From NCBI RefSeq assembly GCF_014490035.1, contig NZ_CP061008.1:2852001-2916000 (forward strand): a DNA stretch of 64,000 nucleotides, read 5' to 3'. Positions within the stretch are counted from its first letter, which is position 1, and every line of letters begins with the position of its first letter. Below are positions 49,960-63,827 of this stretch, one piece after another. The DNA comes from Achromobacter xylosoxidans (GTDB lineage: Bacteria; Pseudomonadota; Gammaproteobacteria; Burkholderiales; Burkholderiaceae_B). The translations under genes were made by a program, and so were the position numbers. The notes below the pieces were generated by a model. It did not search any database. It saw only the letters and a program-made list of their open reading frames with translations, and had not been told where the DNA came from.

Positions 49960-49965
49960 TATAAT
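49960..49965 (+). promoter_or_regulatory. Consensus -10 element before the radical SAM gene
   Basis: TATAAT lies 40 bases before ATG 50006, predicting a start near 49972. No clear -35 box. An in-frame start codon at 49964 overlaps this element and is therefore unlikely to be used. Confidence 0.5.
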
Positions 49966-50005
49966 GGCCCCGATCCCCGCTTCGACGGCAATCTTGCCGT
50001 GTTTC

Positions 50006-51919
50006 ATGTCCTCTTTGCCTCTACGCGTGCTGTCGGTCATTCCGCCGATGACGCAGCTCAATACTCCGTACCCGTCCACCGCCTACCTGACCGGCTTTCT
50101 GCGGTCGCGCGACGTGACCTCGTTCCAGGAAGACCTGGCGCTGGCCCTGGTGCTGCGCCTGCTGTCGGCCGACGGCCTGCGCGCCGTGGCGGAACGCGTC
50201 GCCGCCTTGCCGGCGAACAAGCACAGTCCCGCGGTCCAGTCCTTCGTGGCGCAGCAGGCGCGCTACCTGGCGACCATCGGGCCGGTGATCGCCTTCCTGC
50301 AGGGCCGCGATTCGACGCTGGCGCACCGCATCGTCGGCCGCCATTTCCTGCCCGAGGGGCCGCGCTTCAGCTCGCTGGACGCGTATCTGGACGAAGACGG
50401 CGGCGATCCGCTGGGCTGGGCCTTCGGCGCCCTGGGCCTGCATGACCGCGCCAAGCACCTGGCGACGCTGTATCTGAACGACCTGGCCGACGTGCTGCGG
50501 GACGCGGTGGATCCGCGCTTCGAGTTCGTGCGCTATGCCGAGTCGCTGGCGGGCAGCCAGCCCACGTTCGACCCGCTGGCCCAGGCGCTGGCGGCGCCGC
50601 CCACGCTGGTGGACGACATGCTGCGCAGCCTGACCGCGGAAGCGCTGGCCCGCCACACGCCCACCGTGGTGCTGCTTTCCGTACCGTTCCCCGGCGCGGT
50701 CTATGCCGCCTTCCGCATCGCCCAGACCATCAAGGCGCACGATCCCGGCATCGTCACCGTGTTGGGCGGCGGCTTCGTCAACACCGAACTGCGCGAACTG
50801 AAGGACCCGCGGGTCTTCGATTACTTCGACTACGTGACCCTGGACGCGGGCGAGCGCCCCTTGCTGTCGCTCCTGGAACACCTGCAGGGCAAACGCTCGC
50901 GCCAGCGTCTGGTGCGCACCTTCCTGCGCGACGCGGACAGCGGCGCGGTGCGCTATGTGAACATGGTCGAACCCGATATCGCCTTTGCCGAAGTGGGTAC
51001 GCCCACCTGGGACGGGCTGCCGCTGGACCGCTACCTGTCGCTGCTGGACATGCTGAATCCCATGAACCGGCTGTGGAGCGACGGGCGCTGGAACAAGCTG
51101 ACCGTGGCGCATGGCTGCTATTGGAAGAAATGCAGTTTCTGCGACGTCAGCCTGGATTACATCGGCCGCTACGAAGGCGCATCCGCCGCGGTGCTGGCCG
51201 ACCGCATCGAGGCCATCGTGCGCGAAACCGGGCAGACCGGCTTCCATTTCGTCGACGAGGCCGCGCCGCCCAAGTCGCTCAAGGCGCTGGCGACCGAGCT
51301 GATTGCGCGCAATACCGATATTTCATGGTGGGGCAACATCCGCTTCGAAAAGACCTTCAGCCCCGAACTCTGCGAACTGCTGGCCGACAGCGGCTGTATC
51401 GCAGTATCGGGCGGCCTGGAGGTCGCCTCGGACCGCCTGCTGAACCTGATGAAGAAGGGGGTCTCGGTGGATCAGGTGGCGCGGGTCACGCGCGCCTTCA
51501 CCGACGCCGGCATCCTGGTGCATGCCTACCTGATGTACGGCTTTCCCACGCAGACCGTGCAAGATACCGTGGATGCGCTGGAGTACGTGCGGCAACTGTT
51601 CGACAATGGCTGCATCCAGAGCGGCTTTTTCCACCGATTCGCCTGTACAGTGCATTCGCCCGTGGGGCAGAACCCCGAGGAATACGGCGTTACCCTCAAG
51701 CCCTTGCCGCCGATCACCTTCGCCAAGAACGACGTCGGCTTCCATGACCCTACCGGCGTGGATCACGACGCGCTGGGCCGCGCGCTGAAGAAGGCCATCT
51801 ACAACTACATGCATGGCATCGGGCTGGACGAGGACGTGCGTAGCTGGTTCCCGTTCCATGTGCCGAAGACCACGGTATCGAAGCACCGGATCGGCCGGGC
51901 ATTGAGCCAGCGCGGTTAG
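50006..51919 (+). CDS. B12-binding-type radical SAM protein with Cys-X4-Cys-X2-Cys cluster motif
   Basis: A 637-residue protein. The N-terminal part (to about 350) includes a cobalamin-binding-like Rossmann region (LGGGFVNTELRELKDPRVFD; GERPLLSLLEHLQGK). The radical SAM core (about 360-580) has the cluster motif HGCYWKKCSFCD with Cys371, Cys376 and Cys379 (codons at 51116, 51131 and 51140), that is X4 instead of the canonical X3 between the first two cysteines. FVDEAAPPKSLKAL and GGLEVASDRLLNLMKKG are further core motifs. It may perform a radical methylation, rearrangement or C-S/C-C chemistry; the substrate is unknown. It is not clustered with an obvious pathway; a second -10 box separates the next gene. 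Confidence 0.85.
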   Translation: MSSLPLRVLSVIPPMTQLNTPYPSTAYLTGFLRSRDVTSFQEDLALALVLRLLSADGLRAVAERVAALPANKHSPAVQSFVAQQARYLATIGPVIAFLQGRDSTLAHRIVGRHFLPEGPRFSSLDAYLDEDGGDPLGWAFGALGLHDRAKHLATLYLNDLADVLRDAVDPRFEFVRYAESLAGSQPTFDPLAQALAAPPTLVDDMLRSLTAEALARHTPTVVLLSVPFPGAVYAAFRIAQTIKAHDPGIVTVLGGGFVNTELRELKDPRVFDYFDYVTLDAGERPLLSLLEHLQGKRSRQRLVRTFLRDADSGAVRYVNMVEPDIAFAEVGTPTWDGLPLDRYLSLLDMLNPMNRLWSDGRWNKLTVAHGCYWKKCSFCDVSLDYIGRYEGASAAVLADRIEAIVRETGQTGFHFVDEAAPPKSLKALATELIARNTDISWWGNIRFEKTFSPELCELLADSGCIAVSGGLEVASDRLLNLMKKGVSVDQVARVTRAFTDAGILVHAYLMYGFPTQTVQDTVDALEYVRQLFDNGCIQSGFFHRFACTVHSPVGQNPEEYGVTLKPLPPITFAKNDVGFHDPTGVDHDALGRALKKAIYNYMHGIGLDEDVRSWFPFHVPKTTVSKHRIGRALSQRG

Positions 51920-52721: not shown

Positions 52722-54425
52722 CTAACGCAGCAGCACATCTTCGTAGAACGCGCCGATCGGCCGCTGCGCATCGCGCACCTGGATCTCCAGCACCCAGATG
52801 CCGTCGGCGGGCACGAAGTCCGCCTGCGCCAGCAAATGCTTGCCGTACAGCGCATGCGGGAAATCCGATACCCGGTGTCCGGGAATCTCGCGCACCAGTT
52901 CGCAGCCATGCTCGCGTGCATATTCCGAGGCACGGTCGTATAGCGCGGCTCCCGTCAGGCCTTCCAGCCATGCCAGGCGTGCGCGCCGGAAGACCTCGCG
53001 CGCGGCCTCGGCGCAGCGCAGGCGGTCCGCATCCGCGCCCAGCACGAAGGTGTCGCCGTAGTCGCCCTCGTGGCCGTCCCACACCGGGCCGATGTCCAGT
53101 ACGAAGATGTCGTGCGCCTGCAGCTTGCGGTCGTAGTCGGTGCGCTGGACGGGCGGCGATTGCGTGTCCGGGCCGAAGCGCACATAGGTCGGGTGCCAGT
53201 TGTTGGATGCTCCCATTTGACGCAGGTGCTCGTCCGCCGTGGCGATGGCCTCGCGCGTGGTCATGCCGGGGCGCATCAGCGCGGCGATTTCCGCCACCGC
53301 CTGCATGGATCGCCGGCGCGCGTCCAGGATGCCTGCCAGCGTATAGCGCGGACTGAGGCGTTCCCAGGGGTGCGCCTCGCGCTGCGGCGCGACGCTGGCC
53401 GCGTCCCCGGCTGCGGGGTGGAAGGCTTCGGACCGGTAGCGGTCGGCGGGCAGGCCGGCCGCCAGCAGGCGGTCGCGGGCAGCCTGCACCATTGCGGGAT
53501 TGCCGCAGGCGTAGACCAGGCTGCGGGACCAGTCATGGCCCGCGGCGATGGCGGCGTCCTGCACGTGGCGGCGGGGCCGGCCATCTGCGTTATCGGCCTG
53601 GGACAGCACCGCATGCCACTGGAACCCCTCGCCCTTGCCCTGCAAGGCATCCAGCATCTGCCCGGCGTAGCAATCGTCCGGCGTGCGTCCGCCCCAGTAC
53701 AAGGTCACCGTCTTCAGCGCGCGGCTTTGCAACGCTGCCATAAGGATGGGAGCCACGCCCGCATAGCCCGTGCCGGTGGCCAGCAGCACCAGGTGATCGA
53801 TGCCGGCAGGCATCTCTGCGGGCCAGGTGCAGCCGCCTTGCGCGCTGTCCAGGGTCAGCATGTCGCCGGGCTGGAGACCGGGAAGAATGCCATTGGTGAA
53901 GGCGCCGCCGGGCATGCGGCGGATGTGGAACTCCAGCCGGGCAGGCCCCGCCGCGCCGGGCGCATTCGCTATCGAAAAGTTGCGGCGGGCGCCGCCGTCC
54001 AGGATCAGCCGGGCATGCTGGCCGGGCAGGTAGCCGTAGTCGTCCCCGTCCTGCAACTCGACGATGAGCTGGGTGACGTCCGGCGCCAGCGGCAGGCGTG
54101 ACGCCACGCGGGCGCTGCGCGGCGGCCTGGGTTCTTCGGGGGCGCGCCAATGCGGGAAGCGCAGCGTCAGGTCGCTGGCGGCGCGGCACTGGCACATCAG
54201 CAACTCGTCGCTGGCGGTCTGGTAGCTGCCGTCCGCGGGCGGGGCGATACGCTCATAGCTGCCCGCCACGACCACGGCGCGGCACGAGCCGCAGGCCCCG
54301 CGCTGACAGGAGAAGGGCACGGGTATCCCCTGGGCCAGCGCTGCCTCCAGGATCGAGGTCGTGCCGTCCGCGACGAAGGGGCCGGTCTCCAGGGTGATGG
54401 TGTGGCAGGGCGCAGTGACGGTCAT
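52722..54425 (-). CDS. Ferredoxin / ferredoxin-reductase fused to an M24 peptidase-fold domain
   Basis: A continuous 567-residue frame. Residues 1-90 form a plant-type 2Fe-2S ferredoxin (Cys40, Cys45, Cys48, Cys78). Residues 100-200 are an FAD domain with RRNFSIANAP, and 205-335 an NAD(P) domain with LLATGTGYAGVAPI and YACGNPAMV. This is the layout of electron-transfer chains serving oxygenases. A linker (336-355) joins an M24 (aminopeptidase P/creatinase/DddP fold) domain, 356-567. The five M24 metal ligands all appear: Asp444 and Asp455 (11 apart, DIGPVWDGHEGD), His517 (IPGHRVSD), Glu547 (VLEIQVRD) and Glu562 (FYEDVLL). No signal peptide. It is divergent from the MocR-AraC fusion regulator. 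No oxygenase gene is adjacent, so the electron acceptor is unknown. Confidence 0.88.
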   Translation of the reverse strand: MTVTAPCHTITLETGPFVADGTTSILEAALAQGIPVPFSCQRGACGSCRAVVVAGSYERIAPPADGSYQTASDELLMCQCRAASDLTLRFPHWRAPEEPRPPRSARVASRLPLAPDVTQLIVELQDGDDYGYLPGQHARLILDGGARRNFSIANAPGAAGPARLEFHIRRMPGGAFTNGILPGLQPGDMLTLDSAQGGCTWPAEMPAGIDHLVLLATGTGYAGVAPILMAALQSRALKTVTLYWGGRTPDDCYAGQMLDALQGKGEGFQWHAVLSQADNADGRPRRHVQDAAIAAGHDWSRSLVYACGNPAMVQAARDRLLAAGLPADRYRSEAFHPAAGDAASVAPQREAHPWERLSPRYTLAGILDARRRSMQAVAEIAALMRPGMTTREAIATADEHLRQMGASNNWHPTYVRFGPDTQSPPVQRTDYDRKLQAHDIFVLDIGPVWDGHEGDYGDTFVLGADADRLRCAEAAREVFRRARLAWLEGLTGAALYDRASEYAREHGCELVREIPGHRVSDFPHALYGKHLLAQADFVPADGIWVLEIQVRDAQRPIGAFYEDVLLR

Positions 54426-54481: not shown

Positions 54482-54506
54482 AATGGCTACATGGAATAGA
54501 GCCATT
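54482..54506. promoter_or_regulatory. Inverted repeat at the MocR-AraC promoter, candidate operator
   Basis: AATGGCT (54482-54488) and AGCCATT (54500-54506) are perfect 7-bp arms with an 11-base spacer. The left arm overlaps a possible -10 (TAGAAT, 54479-54484) and an early in-frame ATG (54483). Binding here would block transcription of the regulator gene and could control the divergent fusion gene, whose ATG is 57 bases away. Confidence 0.55.
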
Positions 54507-54515
54507 TCTGCCAAT

Positions 54516-56531
54516 ATGAACAAGCCACTTTCCGTAGCGCAGCCAGGCGCGAAACGCCAGGAAGCCAGCCTGGATCTGCCGATGGACGCCGCGCGGCCCG
54601 GGGAATCCAAGCAGGCCTGGGTCTACCGCGAGATCCGAGAACGCATACTGAAGGGCGCGCTGCCGTCCGGTGCGCGCCTGCCGTCCACGCGCAGCCTGGC
54701 CGGGCGCTGGCACATTGCGCGCTCCACGGTCGAGGCTGCCTACGATCAATTGCGCAGCGAAGGCTATACCGCGGGCACGGTCGGTTCGGGCACTCATGTG
54801 GCGGCGGTGATTCCGGACAACTTTTTCCGGGCGGGGTTGCCGGGCCAGGGCGCCGCAACGTCCCAGACCCCGGGGCCGCGCCCGGCAACGCAAGCAGGCG
54901 GGCCAACGGTCGGCGCACCCGGGGCCGGCCCGCACATGGCCGCGATCTTCGCGCCGACGCAGCCCAACTCCCAGTTCTATTCCCGCAGCGCCGACGCCGC
55001 GCTCTTTCCCATGGAACGCTGGCGCAAGGGGCTGATGACCAGCGCGCGGCGCGTCACGCCGGCCCAGCTTGCCAACGATGAACCACAAGGCTGGCGCCCC
55101 TTGCGCGAGCAGATCGCCCGCTACCTGGGCGCGGCCCGCGGCATCAGCTGCGATCCGGACCAGGTCATCGTCCTGGGCGGCATCCGCGACGGCCTGGACC
55201 TCTGCGGCCATCTCCTGCTGCAGCCGCAGGACAAGGTGCTGATCGAGGATCCGGGCTACCTGAACGCCGAACCCATCTTCGGCCAGTACACGCGGCACAT
55301 CGTTCCCTTGGCCATCGACGCCGAAGGTTTTCCGGTGGCGCAGGCGCGGCGCCAGCGCGGCGTGAAGCTGGTGCACGTCACGCCCGCGCACCAGGCGCCC
55401 ACTGGCGCCACCATGTCCGTGTCCCGCCGTCTGGAGCTGCTGGACTGGGCCGCGCAGGCCGGCTGCTGGATCGTCGAGGACGACTACGACAGCGAATTCA
55501 GCTACGACGGCGCGCCGCTGGCGGCCCTGAAAAGCCTGGACACGGCCGACCGCGTCATCCATTGCGGCAGTTTCAACAAGACCCTGTTCAACGCGCTGCG
55601 CATCGGCTATGCGGTGGTTCCCAAGGAATTGGCGGCCGCTTTCGTGCAGGCGCGCCGCCGCGCGGGGCGCTCGCCCAGCATCATCGAGCAAATGACGCTG
55701 GCGGCGTTCCTGCAGGACGGCAGTTTCGCGCGCCACGTGCGCAAGGCGCGCGGCGTGTACGCGCGACGGCGCGACGCCGTGCTGCGCGCCTTGCGCCAGG
55801 CCGTCGGCAACGATGCGTTACGCGTCGGTGGCGAGCACGCGGGCTTTCACCTGCTGTGGTGGCTGCCTCCCGGCTGGGATGTGGCGCAGGCCGTGGCGGC
55901 GGCGCGGGCCGCGGGCGTGGGCATGCAGCCGGTGGCGGACTTCTGCCGCAAGGTGGATCTGGCGCCGGGCGTGGTGGTGGGCTATAGCACGGTGCAGGAA
56001 GACGCCCTGCTGAAGCTGGGAACGCTGCTGGCGCAAACCGCGCCAGGCGCGGGCCAGCAGCAGGATCCGGGCTTGCTGCGCCGCCTGCTGCGCGTCAAGG
56101 ACCGCATGGACGCGGCCTCGCACGAGGCCTGGCCGGTGGAGCGCCTGGCCGAGGTCAGCGGCATCTCCAAGGCCCATTTTGCGCATTCCTTCAAGCGCGC
56201 CTTCGGCCTGCCGCCGCACCGCTATCTGCTGACGCGGCGTATCGAGCAAAGCGTGGCCATGCTGCGGGACACGGAGCGGAGCGTCACGGAAATCGCCTAC
56301 GCCACCGGCTGGGAAAGCCTGGGCACCTATAGCCGCATCTTCCGCGACATTACCGGTCTCAGCCCCAGCGCCATGCGGGCGCAGGCGCGGGAGGGAACGC
56401 CGCCGTTGGACCGCATGCCCGGTTGCGTTGCGAAGGCCGCGCAGCGCCCCGATCTCAACATCGCTGTTTTGGAGAAGCGCCGCCGCGAGGCCGACGGTAA
56501 ATTGCCGCCATTAACCAAGGAGGTCTCATGA
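54516..56531 (+). CDS. MocR-type regulator (GntR + aminotransferase domains) with an extra C-terminal AraC domain
   Basis: A 671-residue, three-module regulator in one frame. Residues 34-100: GntR winged helix (WVYREIRERILKGALPSG; LPSTRSLAGRWHIARSTVE). Residues 150-507: fold-type I PLP aminotransferase-like domain with VTPAHQAPTGATMS, EDDYDSEFSYDG and Lys355 (GSFNKTLFNALRIGY) for the PLP Schiff base, so PLP or an amino compound may be the signal. Residues 521-625: complete AraC double helix-turn-helix (VERLAEVSGISKAHFAHSFK; VTEIAYATGWESLGTYSRIF). A tail ends NIAVLEKRRREAD. MocR proteins normally end after the aminotransferase domain. ATG 54516 is chosen because an upstream ATG (54483) overlaps the promoter and operator. 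The stop overlaps the VOC start by four bases. Confidence 0.88.
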   Translation: MNKPLSVAQPGAKRQEASLDLPMDAARPGESKQAWVYREIRERILKGALPSGARLPSTRSLAGRWHIARSTVEAAYDQLRSEGYTAGTVGSGTHVAAVIPDNFFRAGLPGQGAATSQTPGPRPATQAGGPTVGAPGAGPHMAAIFAPTQPNSQFYSRSADAALFPMERWRKGLMTSARRVTPAQLANDEPQGWRPLREQIARYLGAARGISCDPDQVIVLGGIRDGLDLCGHLLLQPQDKVLIEDPGYLNAEPIFGQYTRHIVPLAIDAEGFPVAQARRQRGVKLVHVTPAHQAPTGATMSVSRRLELLDWAAQAGCWIVEDDYDSEFSYDGAPLAALKSLDTADRVIHCGSFNKTLFNALRIGYAVVPKELAAAFVQARRRAGRSPSIIEQMTLAAFLQDGSFARHVRKARGVYARRRDAVLRALRQAVGNDALRVGGEHAGFHLLWWLPPGWDVAQAVAAARAAGVGMQPVADFCRKVDLAPGVVVGYSTVQEDALLKLGTLLAQTAPGAGQQQDPGLLRRLLRVKDRMDAASHEAWPVERLAEVSGISKAHFAHSFKRAFGLPPHRYLLTRRIEQSVAMLRDTERSVTEIAYATGWESLGTYSRIFRDITGLSPSAMRAQAREGTPPLDRMPGCVAKAAQRPDLNIAVLEKRRREADGKLPPLTKEVS

Positions 56532-56944
56532 ACTCAGGCATCAATGTGGCGGGCATATACGTGGATGATCAGGATGCGGCGCTGGCTTTCTACGTGGACA
56601 AGCTTGGATTCCATGTCCACACGGACGTGCGCAACGGACCGTACCGCTGGCTGACGGTCCAGCATCCGGACCAGCCCTCGTTCCAGCTCGGCCTGTTCGC
56701 GCCCGGCCCGCCCATCCACGACGAGGCCACGGCGCAGACCTTGCGCGCCATGGTGGCGAAGGGGGCCATGCCGCCCCTGGTCCTGCATGTGGCCGACTGC
56801 CGCGCAGACTATGCCCGGTTGCAGGCCCTGGGCGTCGAGTTCACGCAGGAACCCATCGAACGCTACGGCAGCGTGGACGCGGGCTTTCGCGATCCGGCGG
56901 GCAATGGCTGGAAGATGATCCAGGCGCCGCGGGGCGCGACATGA
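56528..56944 (+). CDS. VOC-fold protein coupled to the MocR-AraC gene
   Basis: A 138-residue VOC (glyoxalase/bleomycin-resistance) protein with two fold units (NVAGIYVDDQDAALAFYVDK; VDAGFRDPAGNGWKMIQAP). ATGA overlaps the regulator's stop (56528-56531), so translation is coupled, helped by AAGGAGG inside the regulator's last codons. Its opening resembles that of the VOC protein at 45981, which also follows an AraC domain. A catalytic or ligand-binding partner role is possible. Confidence 0.88.
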   Translation: MNSGINVAGIYVDDQDAALAFYVDKLGFHVHTDVRNGPYRWLTVQHPDQPSFQLGLFAPGPPIHDEATAQTLRAMVAKGAMPPLVLHVADCRADYARLQALGVEFTQEPIERYGSVDAGFRDPAGNGWKMIQAPRGAT

Positions 56945-56972: not shown

Positions 56973-57404
56973 TCAGTAAGTGATCCGCACCGAAGCCGCA
57001 CTGCGCTGTGCGCCCGCGCGGGTGACGGCTTCGATGTTGTTGCCGTCCGGGTCCAGCACAAACGCGGCGTAGTAGCCGGGATGGTAGGCGGCGCGCTCGC
57101 CCGGTGGGCCGTTATCCCGGCCGCCGTGCGCCATCGCCGCCTTGTAGAAGGCATCCACCATGGCCTGGTCTTCCGCCTGGAAGGCCAGGTGGATGCGGCC
57201 GGTGAGTTCGCCCTGCATCTCGGCGCTGCCGCGCGACGAAATGAACAGCTCGTCCGTCCAGAAGTCTGCGCCGTCGGAGCCGCCGATGGGAATCTTCAAC
57301 GCATCGAAGACCGCCGTGTAGAACGCCTTGCTGGCGGGCAGGTCGCGCACGACCAGCCCGATGTGATCGATCAAGCGGCCCTTGTGTCGTTCTTTCTGCG
57401 CCAT
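56973..57404 (-). CDS. VOC-fold (glyoxalase-like) protein
   Basis: A 143-residue VOC protein (LIDHIGLVVRDLPASKAFYT, about 11-30; HPGYYAAFVLDPDGNNIEAV, about 107-126), with His14 and Glu in the last motif as possible metal ligands. Start ATG 57404 follows CAGGAG. It is convergent with the MocR-associated VOC gene (28 bases between stops) and is less similar to it than the two AraC-linked copies are to each other. It is closest in style to lactoylglutathione-lyase-like proteins of unknown substrate. Confidence 0.87.
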   Translation of the reverse strand: MAQKERHKGRLIDHIGLVVRDLPASKAFYTAVFDALKIPIGGSDGADFWTDELFISSRGSAEMQGELTGRIHLAFQAEDQAMVDAFYKAAMAHGGRDNGPPGERAAYHPGYYAAFVLDPDGNNIEAVTRAGAQRSAASVRITY

Positions 57405-59219: not shown

Positions 59220-62200
59220 TCAGAACGCGATCTTCACGCCGAGCTTGCCGTTGAAGTTCTGGCCATCGCCTCTCAGGCTGATCTCCGAGCCCACGCTGCC
59301 GTACATGGAGACATTGCGTTTGACGCCCACGTCCGCGCCCAGGTTCAGTTGCACCGATGCGCCCTTCATGTCGGCCCGGAACGGTACATAGCCGTTCTGT
59401 GATGAGAACTCGGTGGTCGGATTGGTCAGGAACTCGTTGACGAGGCTGGCGCGCAGCCAGGTCGTCGCGACCCGCTTGCCGTCTGGCCCGGGATCCAGTT
59501 CCACCGTGCGCGCCAGGCGCACTCCCAGGCGGCCCCTAAGGCTGTCTACGTCGTTGAAGCGGATCTTGGCGGCGCCGTCGTTGGCATCGTTGAGGTTGAC
59601 ATTCTGGAACACCAGTTGCGCCTGCGGCTCGATCACCCATTCGTCGTTCAGGCGGAACGGATAGCCGCCTTCCAGCGAGGTCGCGAAGCCGAAGCCGCGC
59701 GTGTCCAGGTTGTAGCCCGCGGGCGAGCGGCCGTTGTCCACGTCGTAGCGCGTGCCTTGGATCACCGCGTCGACATACCAGCCTTCCTTGCCGATATGCG
59801 TCCAGTAGCCGCCCAGCGTCACGCCGTTCATGGCCGCCTGGCCGGCCGAGCGGCCATCCAGGTGGTCGACGTCGGCTGTGGCGCGGCCGAAGGCGACATA
59901 AGCGCCGGCGTGGTCCATGCTGCCGTTGGCGTTGGCGCGGCGATAAAGGTCCACGCCGGATTGCAGGCCATAGATCTTGTAGTCGTAGTCCGGGCCTCGG
60001 GATCCCAGGATGCCCGAGTTGCTGCCGTTGCGCTCGCCTGTCACGCCGATGACGCGGCCCCATGCCAGGGAATTGCTGCCGGTCGGCGTGGAGGGCAGGG
60101 CGTAGCGCGCCTCGCCGATGCGTTCATGTAGCGAGTCGAGGAAGGTCGAACCGTAGCGCAAGGCCAGCTCCGGCGTCGCCACGGCCGTGGAGACTTCGGG
60201 CCGGTAGTTGGGCGGTGCGGGCGGCACGGGCGTGGGCGGGTTGGGCGGCACCGGCGGCTCGGGCGGGTTCGGTGGAACCGGGGGCTCGGGGTTCTTGCAC
60301 GCGGGATTGCTGGGCGCGGCGGCGCAATCCACCGTCGATCGCAGGTACCAGTTCTGCAGCCCGCTGGCGTCCACGCTGGAGCGTTGCAACGTATAGGCAT
60401 ACGGGCCCGCGGCGACGTAGCCGCCGGCATTACCTAGCGTGAACGCGCTGGTGGCCGTGGTGCCGCCATTGACGGCATCGACCAGCAGAATGCCGTTGCC
60501 GGTAGTCACGGCGCCCGCGCCGCCGGCGTTGGTGACGATCAGTGAAGACGAGCCTGAGGCCGTGCCGCCATTGATCACCAGGCGGTCTGACGGCGAACTA
60601 TCGTCGCCGAGCAAGGTGTTCATCGCGATCCTGCCGCCCTGGCCTGCGTAGTTCGGCGTCGTCAGCGTGGTGCCGGGCGCGGTGCCGGTGCCCATGTTGA
60701 TGAGGCCGGCATTGGTCACGCCGGCCACAGTCTGGTTGTAGCCGCTCAGATCGAGCGTACCCGCTGCCGCCACGTTCACGGCTGAGTTGGGACTCAGCGT
60801 GGAGGCCGCGCCCGCGCGCAGCACGCCGTTATTGACGTTGGTCGGACCGCCATGGGTGTTCTGCGCAGTCAGGATCGTCGTGCCGGTGCCGTTCTGATTG
60901 ACGGTGCCGCTGCCGGAGATCAGGCCGGCGAACGTGACCGCGTCGGAGCGATTGAAGCTTAGCGCGCCGCTGTTGGCCACGTCGCCCAGGATGGCGCCGG
61001 ATGTGCCGCCATTGCCCAATTGGAGCGTGCCTGCGGAAATGGTGGTGCCGCCGGTATAGGTGTTATCTGCGGTCAGGATGGTGGTGCCGGTGCCGATCTG
61101 GTTGACCACACCGCTGCCGGAGATCAGGCCGGCGAAGGTCTGGACATCAGAGCGGTTGAAGGTCAGCGCGCCGTTGTTGTCCACGTTGCCCAGGATGGCG
61201 CCGGTCGTGCCGCCATTGCCCAGTTGGAGCGTCCCTGCGGAAATGGTGGTGCCGCCCGTGTAGGTATTGTTTACCGTCAGGATGGTGGTGCCGGTGCCGA
61301 TCTGGTTGACCGTGCCGCTGCCGGATATCAGGCCGGGGAAGGTCTGGATATCAGCGCGGTTGAAGGTCAATGCGCCGTTGTTGGACACGTCGCCCAGGAT
61401 GGCGCCGGACGTGCCGCCATTGCCCAGCTGGAGCGTGCCTGCGGAAATGGTGGTGCCACCCGTATAGGCATTGTCCGCTGTCAGGATGGTGGTGCCGGTG
61501 CCGATCTGGTTGACCGTGCCGCTGCCAGAGATCAGGCCGGGGAAGGTCTGGACGTCGGCGCGGTTGAAGCTCAGCGTGCCGTTGTTTGCGACGTCGCCCA
61601 GGATGGCGCCAATGGTGCCGCCGTTGCCCAGCTGCAGCGTACCTGCCGAGATCGTGGTGCCGCCGGTGTAGGTATTGTCGGCGGTCAGAATCGTGGTGCC
61701 AGAGCCGATCTGGTTGACCACGCCGCTGCCGGATATCTGGCCGGCGAAGGTCACTACGTCGGAACGGTTGAAAGCCAGGACTCCATTGTTTGCCACATTG
61801 CCCACGATGGCGCCCGACGCGCCGCCGTCGCCCAATTGCAGGGTGCCTGCGGCAATCGTGGTGCCGCCGGTGTAGCTGTTGTTGCCTGTCAATACGGTGG
61901 TCCCGGTGCCGATCTGGTTGACCACGCCACTGCCCGAAATCTGGCCTGCGAGCGTCATGGTGTCCGAGCGGTTGAAGGTCAGCGCTCCGTTGTCGACCAC
62001 ATTGCCGAGGATGGCGCCCGAGGTACCACCATTGCCCAGCTGCAGCGTGCCCGCCGAGATCGTGGTACTGCCGGTGTAGGTATTGTCGGCGGTCAGGATC
62101 GTGGTGCCAGAGCCGATCTGGTTGACTCTGCCGCTGCCGGAGATCAGCCCGGAGAAGGTCTGGACGTCGGAGCGGTTGAACGTCAGCGCGCCATTGTTCG

Positions 62201-63827
62201 CGACGTTGCCCAGGATGGCGCCCGAGGTGCCGCCGTTGCCCAGCTGCAGCGTGCCGGCCGAGATCGTGGTGCCGCCGGTGTAGGTATTGTCCGCCGTCAG
62301 GATGGTCGTGCCCGCGCCGATCTGGTTGACCACGCCGCTACCGGAGATCAGGCCAGGGAATGCCACGGTATCGGAGCGATTGAAGGCCAGCGCCCCATTG
62401 TTGGTCACGTTGCCCAGGATGGCGCCCGAACTGCCGCCATCGCCCAGTTGCAGCGTGCCCGCAGAGATCGTGGTGCCTCCCGCATAGGTATTGTTGCCTG
62501 TCAGCACCGCGGTGCCGGCGCCGATCTGGCTGACCGAACCGCTGCCGGAAATCTGGCCTGCGAACGTCAGGGTGTTGGAGCGATCGAACACCAGCGCCCC
62601 ATTGTTCGCTACGTTGCCGACGATCGCGCCCGTGGTGCCGCCATTGCCCAACTGCAAGGTTCCAGCCGCGATGGCGGTGCCGCCGGTATAGGTGTTGTTG
62701 GCCGTCAGTATCGTGGCGCCCGTGCCATTCTGGTTGACCACGCCGCTGCCCGAGATCAGGCCTGCGAACGTCACGCTGTCAGTGCGGTTGAAGTTCAGGA
62801 TGCCGTTGTTTGCGACGTTGCCCACGATGGCGCCGCTGGTGCCGCCATTGCCCAATTGCAGCGTGCCGCCGGCGATCGTGGTACCGCCCGTGTAATTGTT
62901 GTTGGCGGTCAGTATTGTGGTGCCGTTGTAGGTGCTGAGCTTGCCCGCGCCGGTGATGCCGGGAGTAAACACATAGCCGGCGGTGTTGGTGTGGTTGAAC
63001 ACCAGTCCGCCTGTTGCGCCCAGGGTCAGGCTGGGACTGGGGCCCGTCAACGACAGCGTGCCAGGGGCCGCCGCAGCGGCCAGCGCGGCAGCGCCGATAT
63101 TGATGACGCCTTGTGAACTGGCCGCTCCGCCAACCACGGCGCTGGTCGCACTGACCACGGCATCGTTCGAAATGGTCACGGCGCCGTTGCCCGAAGCGCC
63201 CACGCTGAGTTGAGCGCTGCTGTTCCACTGCGTGCCAGCGCCGCTGACCGTCACCACGCCCACGCTGCCCGGGTCGTAGCCGACAACGGCGGCCGCATTG
63301 CTCACGACCGCGCTGTCGCTGATCTGCAGCGTGCCGTTGCCGGTCTGGCCCACGCGCATGAAGCCGGTGGTGTTCAGCTGCGATCCCAGGCCGCTTACCG
63401 TAACGGTGCCGGTGCCGCCCGCCGCCACGCCCACATAAGTGTTGGTCGTGCTTCTGACGACACCGCCGTTCGAAACACCCAGCGTGCCCGTGCCCGAGAA
63501 CCCTACGGACAGGCCAGCGCTGTTCGTCCATTGCGCTCCCGTGCCGCTCACCGTCACATGGCCGGTGCTGCCGACCTGCCGGCCGATGAAGCCGGATCCG
63601 TTGGACACCACGCCGGTCGCGCCAATCTGCAGCGTGCCGGTACTGGTGTTGCCTACCGTGAGGGAACTGGCTCCCAGGTTCCAGGGCGAACTCTGCGACC
63701 CGGGAACGGTGACTATCGATCCGCCGTCGATGGTCTGGGAGTAGGCGGGGAAAGCGCCCAACGCGATCAGGAATGCGCTGGAAAGCTTGAATGACAAGCG
63801 GACGTCAATTGGTGACAAGGGCTGCAT
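59220..63827 (-). CDS. Repeat-rich autotransporter (type Va secretion) with ten tandem 68-residue repeats
   Basis: A 1535-residue self-secreting surface protein. Signal peptide: residues 1-30 (cleaving after AYS). Residues 56-245: four ~50-residue beta-helix repeats (VGxTGxGTL...VVSN...VTVSGxGxQW). Residues 321-1000: ten copies of a 68-residue passenger-associated repeat (GTLQLGNGGTSGAILG ... FNRSD ... LISGSGVVNQIGTGTTILTA). A proline linker (PEPPVPPNPPEPP) follows, then a C-terminal beta-barrel of about 280 residues ending KLGVKIAF. The only passenger cysteines lie just before the linker (VDCAAAPSNPACKN). No RGD motif or protease triad is evident. Likely an adhesin or surface-coat protein. 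Upstream (63828-64000) is unusually AT-rich and holds a palindrome. Confidence 0.92.
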   Translation of the reverse strand: MQPLSPIDVRLSFKLSSAFLIALGAFPAYSQTIDGGSIVTVPGSQSSPWNLGASSLTVGNTSTGTLQIGATGVVSNGSGFIGRQVGSTGHVTVSGTGAQWTNSAGLSVGFSGTGTLGVSNGGVVRSTTNTYVGVAAGGTGTVTVSGLGSQLNTTGFMRVGQTGNGTLQISDSAVVSNAAAVVGYDPGSVGVVTVSGAGTQWNSSAQLSVGASGNGAVTISNDAVVSATSAVVGGAASSQGVINIGAAALAAAAAPGTLSLTGPSPSLTLGATGGLVFNHTNTAGYVFTPGITGAGKLSTYNGTTILTANNNYTGGTTIAGGTLQLGNGGTSGAIVGNVANNGILNFNRTDSVTFAGLISGSGVVNQNGTGATILTANNTYTGGTAIAAGTLQLGNGGTTGAIVGNVANNGALVFDRSNTLTFAGQISGSGSVSQIGAGTAVLTGNNTYAGGTTISAGTLQLGDGGSSGAILGNVTNNGALAFNRSDTVAFPGLISGSGVVNQIGAGTTILTADNTYTGGTTISAGTLQLGNGGTSGAILGNVANNGALTFNRSDVQTFSGLISGSGRVNQIGSGTTILTADNTYTGSTTISAGTLQLGNGGTSGAILGNVVDNGALTFNRSDTMTLAGQISGSGVVNQIGTGTTVLTGNNSYTGGTTIAAGTLQLGDGGASGAIVGNVANNGVLAFNRSDVVTFAGQISGSGVVNQIGSGTTILTADNTYTGGTTISAGTLQLGNGGTIGAILGDVANNGTLSFNRADVQTFPGLISGSGTVNQIGTGTTILTADNAYTGGTTISAGTLQLGNGGTSGAILGDVSNNGALTFNRADIQTFPGLISGSGTVNQIGTGTTILTVNNTYTGGTTISAGTLQLGNGGTTGAILGNVDNNGALTFNRSDVQTFAGLISGSGVVNQIGTGTTILTADNTYTGGTTISAGTLQLGNGGTSGAILGDVANSGALSFNRSDAVTFAGLISGSGTVNQNGTGTTILTAQNTHGGPTNVNNGVLRAGAASTLSPNSAVNVAAAGTLDLSGYNQTVAGVTNAGLINMGTGTAPGTTLTTPNYAGQGGRIAMNTLLGDDSSPSDRLVINGGTASGSSSLIVTNAGGAGAVTTGNGILLVDAVNGGTTATSAFTLGNAGGYVAAGPYAYTLQRSSVDASGLQNWYLRSTVDCAAAPSNPACKNPEPPVPPNPPEPPVPPNPPTPVPPAPPNYRPEVSTAVATPELALRYGSTFLDSLHERIGEARYALPSTPTGSNSLAWGRVIGVTGERNGSNSGILGSRGPDYDYKIYGLQSGVDLYRRANANGSMDHAGAYVAFGRATADVDHLDGRSAGQAAMNGVTLGGYWTHIGKEGWYVDAVIQGTRYDVDNGRSPAGYNLDTRGFGFATSLEGGYPFRLNDEWVIEPQAQLVFQNVNLNDANDGAAKIRFNDVDSLRGRLGVRLARTVELDPGPDGKRVATTWLRASLVNEFLTNPTTEFSSQNGYVPFRADMKGASVQLNLGADVGVKRNVSMYGSVGSEISLRGDGQNFNGKLGVKIAF
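60828..62867 (-). repeat. Ten in-frame 204-bp tandem repeats in the autotransporter passenger
   Basis: Ten units of exactly 68 codons run without gaps from GTLQLG (codon start 62867) to ...NVNN (end 60828). Units 3-9 are most alike and the first and last most diverged. Each unit has the form GTLQLGxGGxxGAIxGxVxNxG, then LxFxRSD, then GxISGSGxVxQ, then GTxxLTxxNTYTGGTTIxA. Near-identical neighbouring DNA makes copy-number change by recombination likely. Confidence 0.92.
63093..63662 (-). repeat. Four ~150-bp repeats in the N-terminal passenger
   Basis: Units start near residues 56, 106, 157 and 207 (period 50-51 residues), each with VGxTGxGTLxI, a VVSN-like turn and VTVSGxGxQW; the fourth is shorter. 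Sequence similarity is protein-level rather than DNA-level, so they are older than the 204-bp array. Confidence 0.75.

Follow-up and report, generated by a model that had tools for sequence, protein, structure and literature searches.

A ferredoxin reductase chain fused to an M24 pita-bread domain beside a divergent MocR gene in Achromobacter xylosoxidans suggests an old hydrolase fold turned redox enzyme

Reductases of the BenC, AntC and MmoC type consist of a [2Fe-2S] ferredoxin (Fer2) domain followed by FAD- and NAD(P)-binding domains, and they are free proteins. The M24 (pita-bread) fold is that of methionine aminopeptidase, prolidase, aminopeptidase P and DddP; according to passages of PMC4108388, DddP binds two irons and E. 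coli methionine aminopeptidase is cited as using Fe(II) as its native cofactor. Two further systems are relevant for comparison. In Dirammox, as described in parts of PMC9478400, DnfA is an AurF/CmlI-like diiron enzyme that converts hydroxylamine to N2 with O2, NADH and FAD, DnfB is an FNR/2Fe-2S reductase that was dispensable in the assay, DnfC is a glutamine amidotransferase, and the title of a reference in that paper names a MocR-like regulator, DnfR. The HD-domain oxygenases MIOX, PhnZ and TmpB represent a metallohydrolase fold turned diiron oxygenase (sections of PMC8177086). Here we describe a gene of Achromobacter xylosoxidans, located in a stretch of 64,000 nucleotides (contig NZ_CP061008.1, positions 2,852,001 to 2,916,000; hereafter the window), which encodes the same reductase domains as BenC, AntC and MmoC, in the same order, but with an M24 domain downstream in the same chain. 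The earlier note on this DNA, made from the sequence alone, had called the pairing of an NAD(P)H chain with M24 unfamiliar, and in the open-access literature searched we found no description of an M24 oxygenase or of a ferredoxin chain joined to an M24 protein. The features discussed below are as follows, with positions counted within the window.

52722..54425, minus strand: fused gene P0001, Fer2 - FAD - NAD(P) - M24, 567 amino acids (open reading frame (ORF) and Pfam)
54180..54374, minus strand: plant-type [2Fe-2S] ferredoxin domain, residues 18-82, with Cys40, 45, 48 and 78 (Pfam Fer2, motif alignment)
53829..54110, minus strand: FAD-binding domain, residues 106-199, with R-x-F-S motif (Pfam FAD_binding_6, motif alignment)
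53475..53786, minus strand: NAD(P)-binding domain, residues 214-317, with GTGYAG motif (Pfam NAD_binding_1, motif alignment)
52725..53354, minus strand: M24 (pita-bread) domain, approximately residues 358-567, ligands D444, D455, H517, E547 and E562 (Pfam, alignment)
54516..56531, plus strand, divergent: MocR-type regulator with GntR helix-turn-helix (HTH) and aminotransferase-like domains and an extra C-terminal AraC-type HTH at about 56145-56381 (Pfam)
54482..54506, strandless: palindrome AATGGCT-N11-AGCCATT, candidate MocR operator (exact match between the divergent genes)

The union of ferredoxin, FAD, NAD(P) and M24 domains in one frame of 567 residues, put forward in the earlier note, is borne out by Pfam and by the coordinates. 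All four Pfam matches (Fer2, FAD_binding_6, NAD_binding_1 and Peptidase_M24) exceed their gathering scores, the last of them covering residues 366-519 with 77 bits against a gathering score of 23. The plus-strand translation of 52722-54425 has stops, and the open frame is that of the minus strand. The fused gene is present in a single copy in the 6.76-megabase genome, where the next matches are separate reductases with 35% and 33% identity; the nearest named relatives of the fused protein are from Achromobacter, with 91-94% identity.

The architecture search that had been proposed along with that claim revealed a conserved family: PF00111, PF00175 and PF00557 stand in one chain in 117 of the 120 matches listed (408 found; the window's own protein is included), and the exceptions are P0071 and P0072, which have no M24 domain, and P0079, which has no Fer2. 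Source names of the relatives include Achromobacter, Bordetella, Variovorax, Burkholderia, Roseateles, Paraburkholderia, Herbaspirillum, Collimonas, Pantoea and Pseudomonas. Among 61 genomes compared (the window's own and those of relatives), 37 belong to the same genus, and 20 of these 37, the window's own included, have an open fused frame; it was recovered as one match in 19 genomes and as two pieces of one open frame in G007. Evenly drawn class samples were positive for the window's own genome only (1/369), with the full-length query and with the M24-domain query alike, and the fused family is therefore patchy. None of the 18 matching plasmid records carries the fused gene over more than 80% of its length. 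The ratio of nonsynonymous to synonymous substitution rates (dN/dS) against four relatives is 0.13-0.20 overall, lowest in M24 (0.07-0.15) and 0.36-0.63 in the 17-residue linker, which indicates purifying selection on all domains, with M24 as the most constrained part of the protein. We regard the fused architecture as solid.

We aligned 90 M24 domains, 41 of them from fused proteins, four from Fer2-M24 chains and 45 from others. The five metal ligands named in the earlier note (Asp444, Asp455, His517, Glu547 and Glu562) proved correct and are invariant in all 90 rows, as are H411, R518, H524 and D563; we take H411 and H524 to occupy the positions of the M24 catalytic histidines. The comparison establishes that the redox sites are intact as well: the Fer2 motif C40-x4-C45-x2-C48...C78 is present in 45 of the 45 Fer2-bearing rows, R-x-F/Y-S in 41 of the 41 fused rows, and GTG[YF]AG in 37 of these 41.

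With a Pfam match above the gathering score and all five metal ligands, the C-terminal part belongs to the M24 superfamily. It falls far below the model of type I methionine aminopeptidase, TIGR00500 (31.8 bits for the whole protein and 35.5 for the M24 part, against 171.35), and below the NCBIfam cut-offs for Xaa-Pro aminopeptidases and prolidases, where the best score of the window's M24 part is 13.8 bits against 393 (PRK09795, named 'aminopeptidase'). Its solved relatives are distant only, and its hallmarks are GHRxxDFPH and GAFxED. Judged by sequence comparison, the M24 part of the fused protein is a separate M24 subfamily; it shares the pita-bread domain, the five ligands and both histidines at catalytic positions with methionine aminopeptidase, prolidase, aminopeptidase P and DddP, but differs from them as a subfamily of its own and in its attached redox chain. 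Many stand-alone M24 relatives among the matches listed bear the name 'Xaa-Pro aminopeptidase'. The reductase module has BenC, AntC, PaaE and MmoC as its nearest NCBIfam models, and its best matches of known structure are also such reductases; the layout is that of BenC (Fer2-FAD-NAD order with [2Fe-2S], FAD and NAD motifs), with a score of 106.9 bits against the BenC equivalog cut-off of 430.

A result new to this work is that the coupling of M24 to a reductase recurs beyond the Fer2-FAD-NAD-M24 chain, in several further forms recognizable by domains and motifs, and we regard this recurrence as solid. Chains of Fer2 and M24 without FAD and NAD domains are found in P0130, P0132, P0133 and in the Mitsuaria locus L027, which retains the divergent MocR. 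A second fusion has the order FAD-NAD-Fer2-M24, with Fer2 behind the NAD domain and a C-x5-C-x2-C motif (P0290, P0291, P0293, P0299 from Duganella levis, and P0301; P0324 is incomplete); this order comes from Pfam for P0290, and for P0299 Pfam gives FAD and NAD only, the other two parts having been read from motifs. Two-gene forms were counted with tblastn in 82 M24 regions in loci of at least 9 kilobases (32 fused loci and 50 unfused), since a simple gene caller overlooked the reductase genes in L128, L183, L186 and L187. In seven of the 50 unfused loci (L128, L135, L171, L172, L183, L186 and L187), M24 is preceded on its own strand by a reductase match that ends 35-130 bases before it. The reductase of L186 (L186:6783-8138) adjoins the M24 gene and has the composition Fer2-FAD-NAD-Fer2, with ferredoxin motifs at both ends. 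Used as a query against 160 genomes of one family, it gave 27 matches (E up to 1e-50), three of which span the C-terminal Fer2, and all three of these adjoin M24. Genes for a MocR regulator and a succinate-semialdehyde dehydrogenase lie some kilobases from the reductase-M24 pair of L186.

The M24 tree, built from 80 rows, unites the Fer2-headed chains (support 100/99). It also unites the FAD-NAD-Fer2-linked M24 domains (91/96 for the group without L186, whose branch is long) and places them with 11 stand-alone genes in a wider group (98/91); the coupled or alone state changes three times on the tree. In the tree of FAD-NAD modules both coupled types come together with weak support (85), and the reductases of L187 and L186 are placed elsewhere, on long branches. 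These trees would fit two separate recruitments as well as a single ancient partnership in which ferredoxins were exchanged; either way, they indicate that M24 and the electron chain belong together in these lineages.

The linkage of the fused form to MocR is constant: a divergent MocR gene lies upstream of the fused gene in 32 of 32 fused loci, 30 of them distinct, L026/L098 and L021/L099 being duplicate pairs. Across the six genes flanking each side, as delimited by the simple gene caller, MocR is the sole neighbor cluster common to the fused loci. In the window's MocR, PF00392 and PF00155 score above their cut-offs, and the PdxR equivalog model gives 411.8 against 320. The C-terminal AraC-type HTH was recognized in a Pfam scan of the window protein only; MocR proteins of 669-681 amino acids are encoded in seven loci (the window, L008-L011, L106 and L107), and the complete ones of the remaining fused loci have about 470-530. 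With up to two mismatches, the palindrome has one more match in the window, at 1321-1345, with 0.10 expected in all, and the extended pattern AATGGCTNNATTN6AGCCATT, at the same tolerance, has its single site in the 6.76-megabase genome at 54482-54506. Of the 30 fused loci read, 26 have a palindrome of this kind (up to two mismatches, spacing 10-11) in the interval that separates MocR from the fused gene; on these terms none was found in L023, L024, L025 and L100. Among the operon forms, a MocR gene is within 3 kilobases in L128, L135, L171, L172, L183 and L187, and not in L186; an amino-acid permease is encoded in L172, L183 and L187, and a glutamine amidotransferase in L183 and L187.

The ectoine hydrolase DoeA/EutD, which we take to be an M24-fold enzyme of a subfamily other than that of the fused protein, provides a parallel through the MocR-type regulation of ectoine use, but is without a redox chain. 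MocR-type regulons of ectoine use are described in portions of PMC5320631, where MocR regulators are also linked to the metabolism of pyridoxal phosphate, gamma-aminobutyric acid and taurine as well as ectoine; by analogy, a small amine is a likely substrate of the fused protein.

Stand-alone M24 genes have other surroundings. The gene adjacent to M24 encodes an FtrA/GlxA-like regulator in 12 of the 43 rows classed as alone (11 of them divergent; one has a model match). In L124 the M24 gene and a Rieske oxygenase gene are divergent, GGACT/AIG2-like genes lie near those of L124 and L130 (by Pfam) and L132 (by similarity), and genes for a bacterioferritin and a siderophore receptor lie near that of L122.

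We propose tentatively, as an account that falls somewhat short of an even chance, that the fused protein may be a self-sufficient NAD(P)H-dependent metallo-oxidoreductase whose chain feeds a dinuclear, likely diiron, M24 centre that activates O2 and oxidizes small amines under MocR control. Electrons would pass from NAD(P)H through FAD and the [2Fe-2S] cluster to the dinuclear centre; this centre, most likely diiron, would activate O2 and oxidize a small amine or amino-acid-like compound; and the divergent MocR would sense the compound and control the fused gene from the candidate operator between both genes. We infer M24 as the electron acceptor, iron as the metal, the use of O2, the operator role and the amine substrate. 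That the M24 centre takes electrons and most likely activates O2 is the simplest reading, suggested by the oxygenases that such reductases serve, by the irons of DddP, by the Fer2-M24 form and by the lack of any oxygenase gene found alongside the fused gene, in searches that covered whole genomes for the AurF type and not for other oxygenase types. The surroundings of six of the seven reductase-M24 operons were checked for oxygenases by eye, from the first residues of longer ORFs. MIOX, PhnZ and TmpB provide a precedent for the step from hydrolase fold to diiron oxygenase, but they have another fold and need no external reducing system, whereas the fused protein carries its own. Taken together, the evidence suggests an old hydrolase fold turned redox enzyme, perhaps a small-amine oxygenase, and we regard the oxygenase reading as the best of several.

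The Dirammox cluster offers a second parallel. L183 and L187 combine MocR, a glutamine amidotransferase, an FAD/NAD/2Fe-2S reductase and an M24 protein in the place of DnfA, but DnfA is AurF/CmlI-like and not M24. The likeness, drawn from descriptions of the dnf genes and not from their sequences, concerns the component parts and falls short of showing that the clusters are homologous. MocR, reductase and amidotransferase occur together only in these two loci; the window has MocR and the reductase, and no amidotransferase among the six neighboring proteins scanned. The Alcaligenes-type protein P0334 was considered as DnfB and rejected, since reductases of its type are widespread and the window's own genome encodes a related one. 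The position of M24 in DnfA's place leads, by analogy, to N-oxygenation as its possible chemistry. The fuller version of our proposal, in which the subfamily would be, to our knowledge, the first pita-bread-fold oxygenase, with dinuclear iron supplied by an NAD(P)H/FAD/2Fe-2S chain from the same polypeptide or the same operon, and would act on small amines under MocR control and maybe by N-oxygenation, is more doubtful than its core.

Several points weigh against the proposed redox role. The full hydrolytic M24 site is retained, so the domain may yet act as a hydrolase. Members of the subfamily need not be linked to a chain, since 43 of the 50 unfused M24 relatives lack an adjoining reductase of these types. 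Apart from L186, the reductase-M24 operons cluster together in the tree (91/96) and do not amount to seven independent cases, and the weak joint grouping of the FAD-NAD modules makes a shared origin with ferredoxin exchange possible. Finally, we know of no M24-fold oxygenase.

The first two of these points also favor the alternative that M24 is an ordinary Fe(II) hydrolase or lyase, the chain merely keeping its iron reduced or gating its activity by redox state. All hydrolytic residues are invariant, most unfused relatives do without a linked reductase, and iron in DddP and Fe(II) in E. coli methionine aminopeptidase (the same passages of PMC4108388) agree with it. However, M24 enzymes are not known to require a dedicated reductase, and two fused reductase architectures plus a third adjoining M24 would be costly for maintenance alone; we consider this explanation unlikely, though it survives best among the alternatives.

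Such reductases usually feed separate oxygenases, and the chain could serve one in trans, with M24 hydrolyzing its product and the fusion joining two steps of a pathway. The Rieske oxygenase gene divergent from the M24 gene of L124 would suit such an arrangement, as would the AurF-type matches (PF11583), which are above the cut-off in two of 12 genomes tested (G1019 and G1139) and below it in six more, including the window's own (G000); AurF was not over the cut-off in G1061 and G1094. However, neither of the two AurF genes adjoins M24, the one in G1019 being on a contig other than M24's and that in G1139 tens of kilobases and more away, MocR is the only shared neighbor of the fused loci within six genes, and the Fer2-M24 chains drop the flavin part and retain the ferredoxin with M24. 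We judge a service in trans rather improbable.

A little more improbable again is reductive instead of O2 chemistry at the M24 centre, such as the reduction of an N-oxide or hydroxylamine. Ferredoxin/flavin fusions elsewhere serve reductions, the MOSC-domain amine reductases being an example, and the use of O2 in our proposal is itself inferred; on the other hand, the reductase modules find their best-scoring matches among oxygenase reductases and flavin reductases, and dinuclear carboxylate/histidine sites with such reductases are typical of O2 enzymes.

An artefact, in which a sequencing error or a functionless chance fusion had merged two genes, would agree with the fused gene of Bordetella sp. 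N (L100:8260-10056), where an in-frame stop within the NAD domain leaves two frames in the same register, and with the broken frames of Variovorax sp. E3 (L025), but it has a negligible probability: one open frame in the same-genus genomes rules out two genes with a stop near residue 345, these frames and the domains in one chain among the matches listed rule out a read error at about 53390-53450, both of which the earlier note had considered, and all domains are under purifying selection.

Elsewhere in the window, 49964-51919 encodes a radical SAM protein whose B12-binding match stays below the threshold, two small genes of the glyoxalase/dioxygenase fold lie on opposite strands at 56528-56944 and 56973-57404, and a frame of 1535 amino acids at 59220-63827 has, by eye, many near-identical repeats and an autotransporter-like C-terminus.

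If the proposed oxygenase role is true, a major metallohydrolase fold would acquire O2 chemistry, following the example of the HD fold in MIOX and PhnZ, and if the subfamily is redox-active, the annotation 'peptidase' that M24 proteins receive would be wrong for many genes. Part of the so far unexplained heterotrophic nitrification in these bacteria may be due to N-oxygenation by M24 proteins, if that chemistry is real. Because the whole chain is one polypeptide, a single purified protein would suffice to test the idea of a redox-active M24 subfamily.
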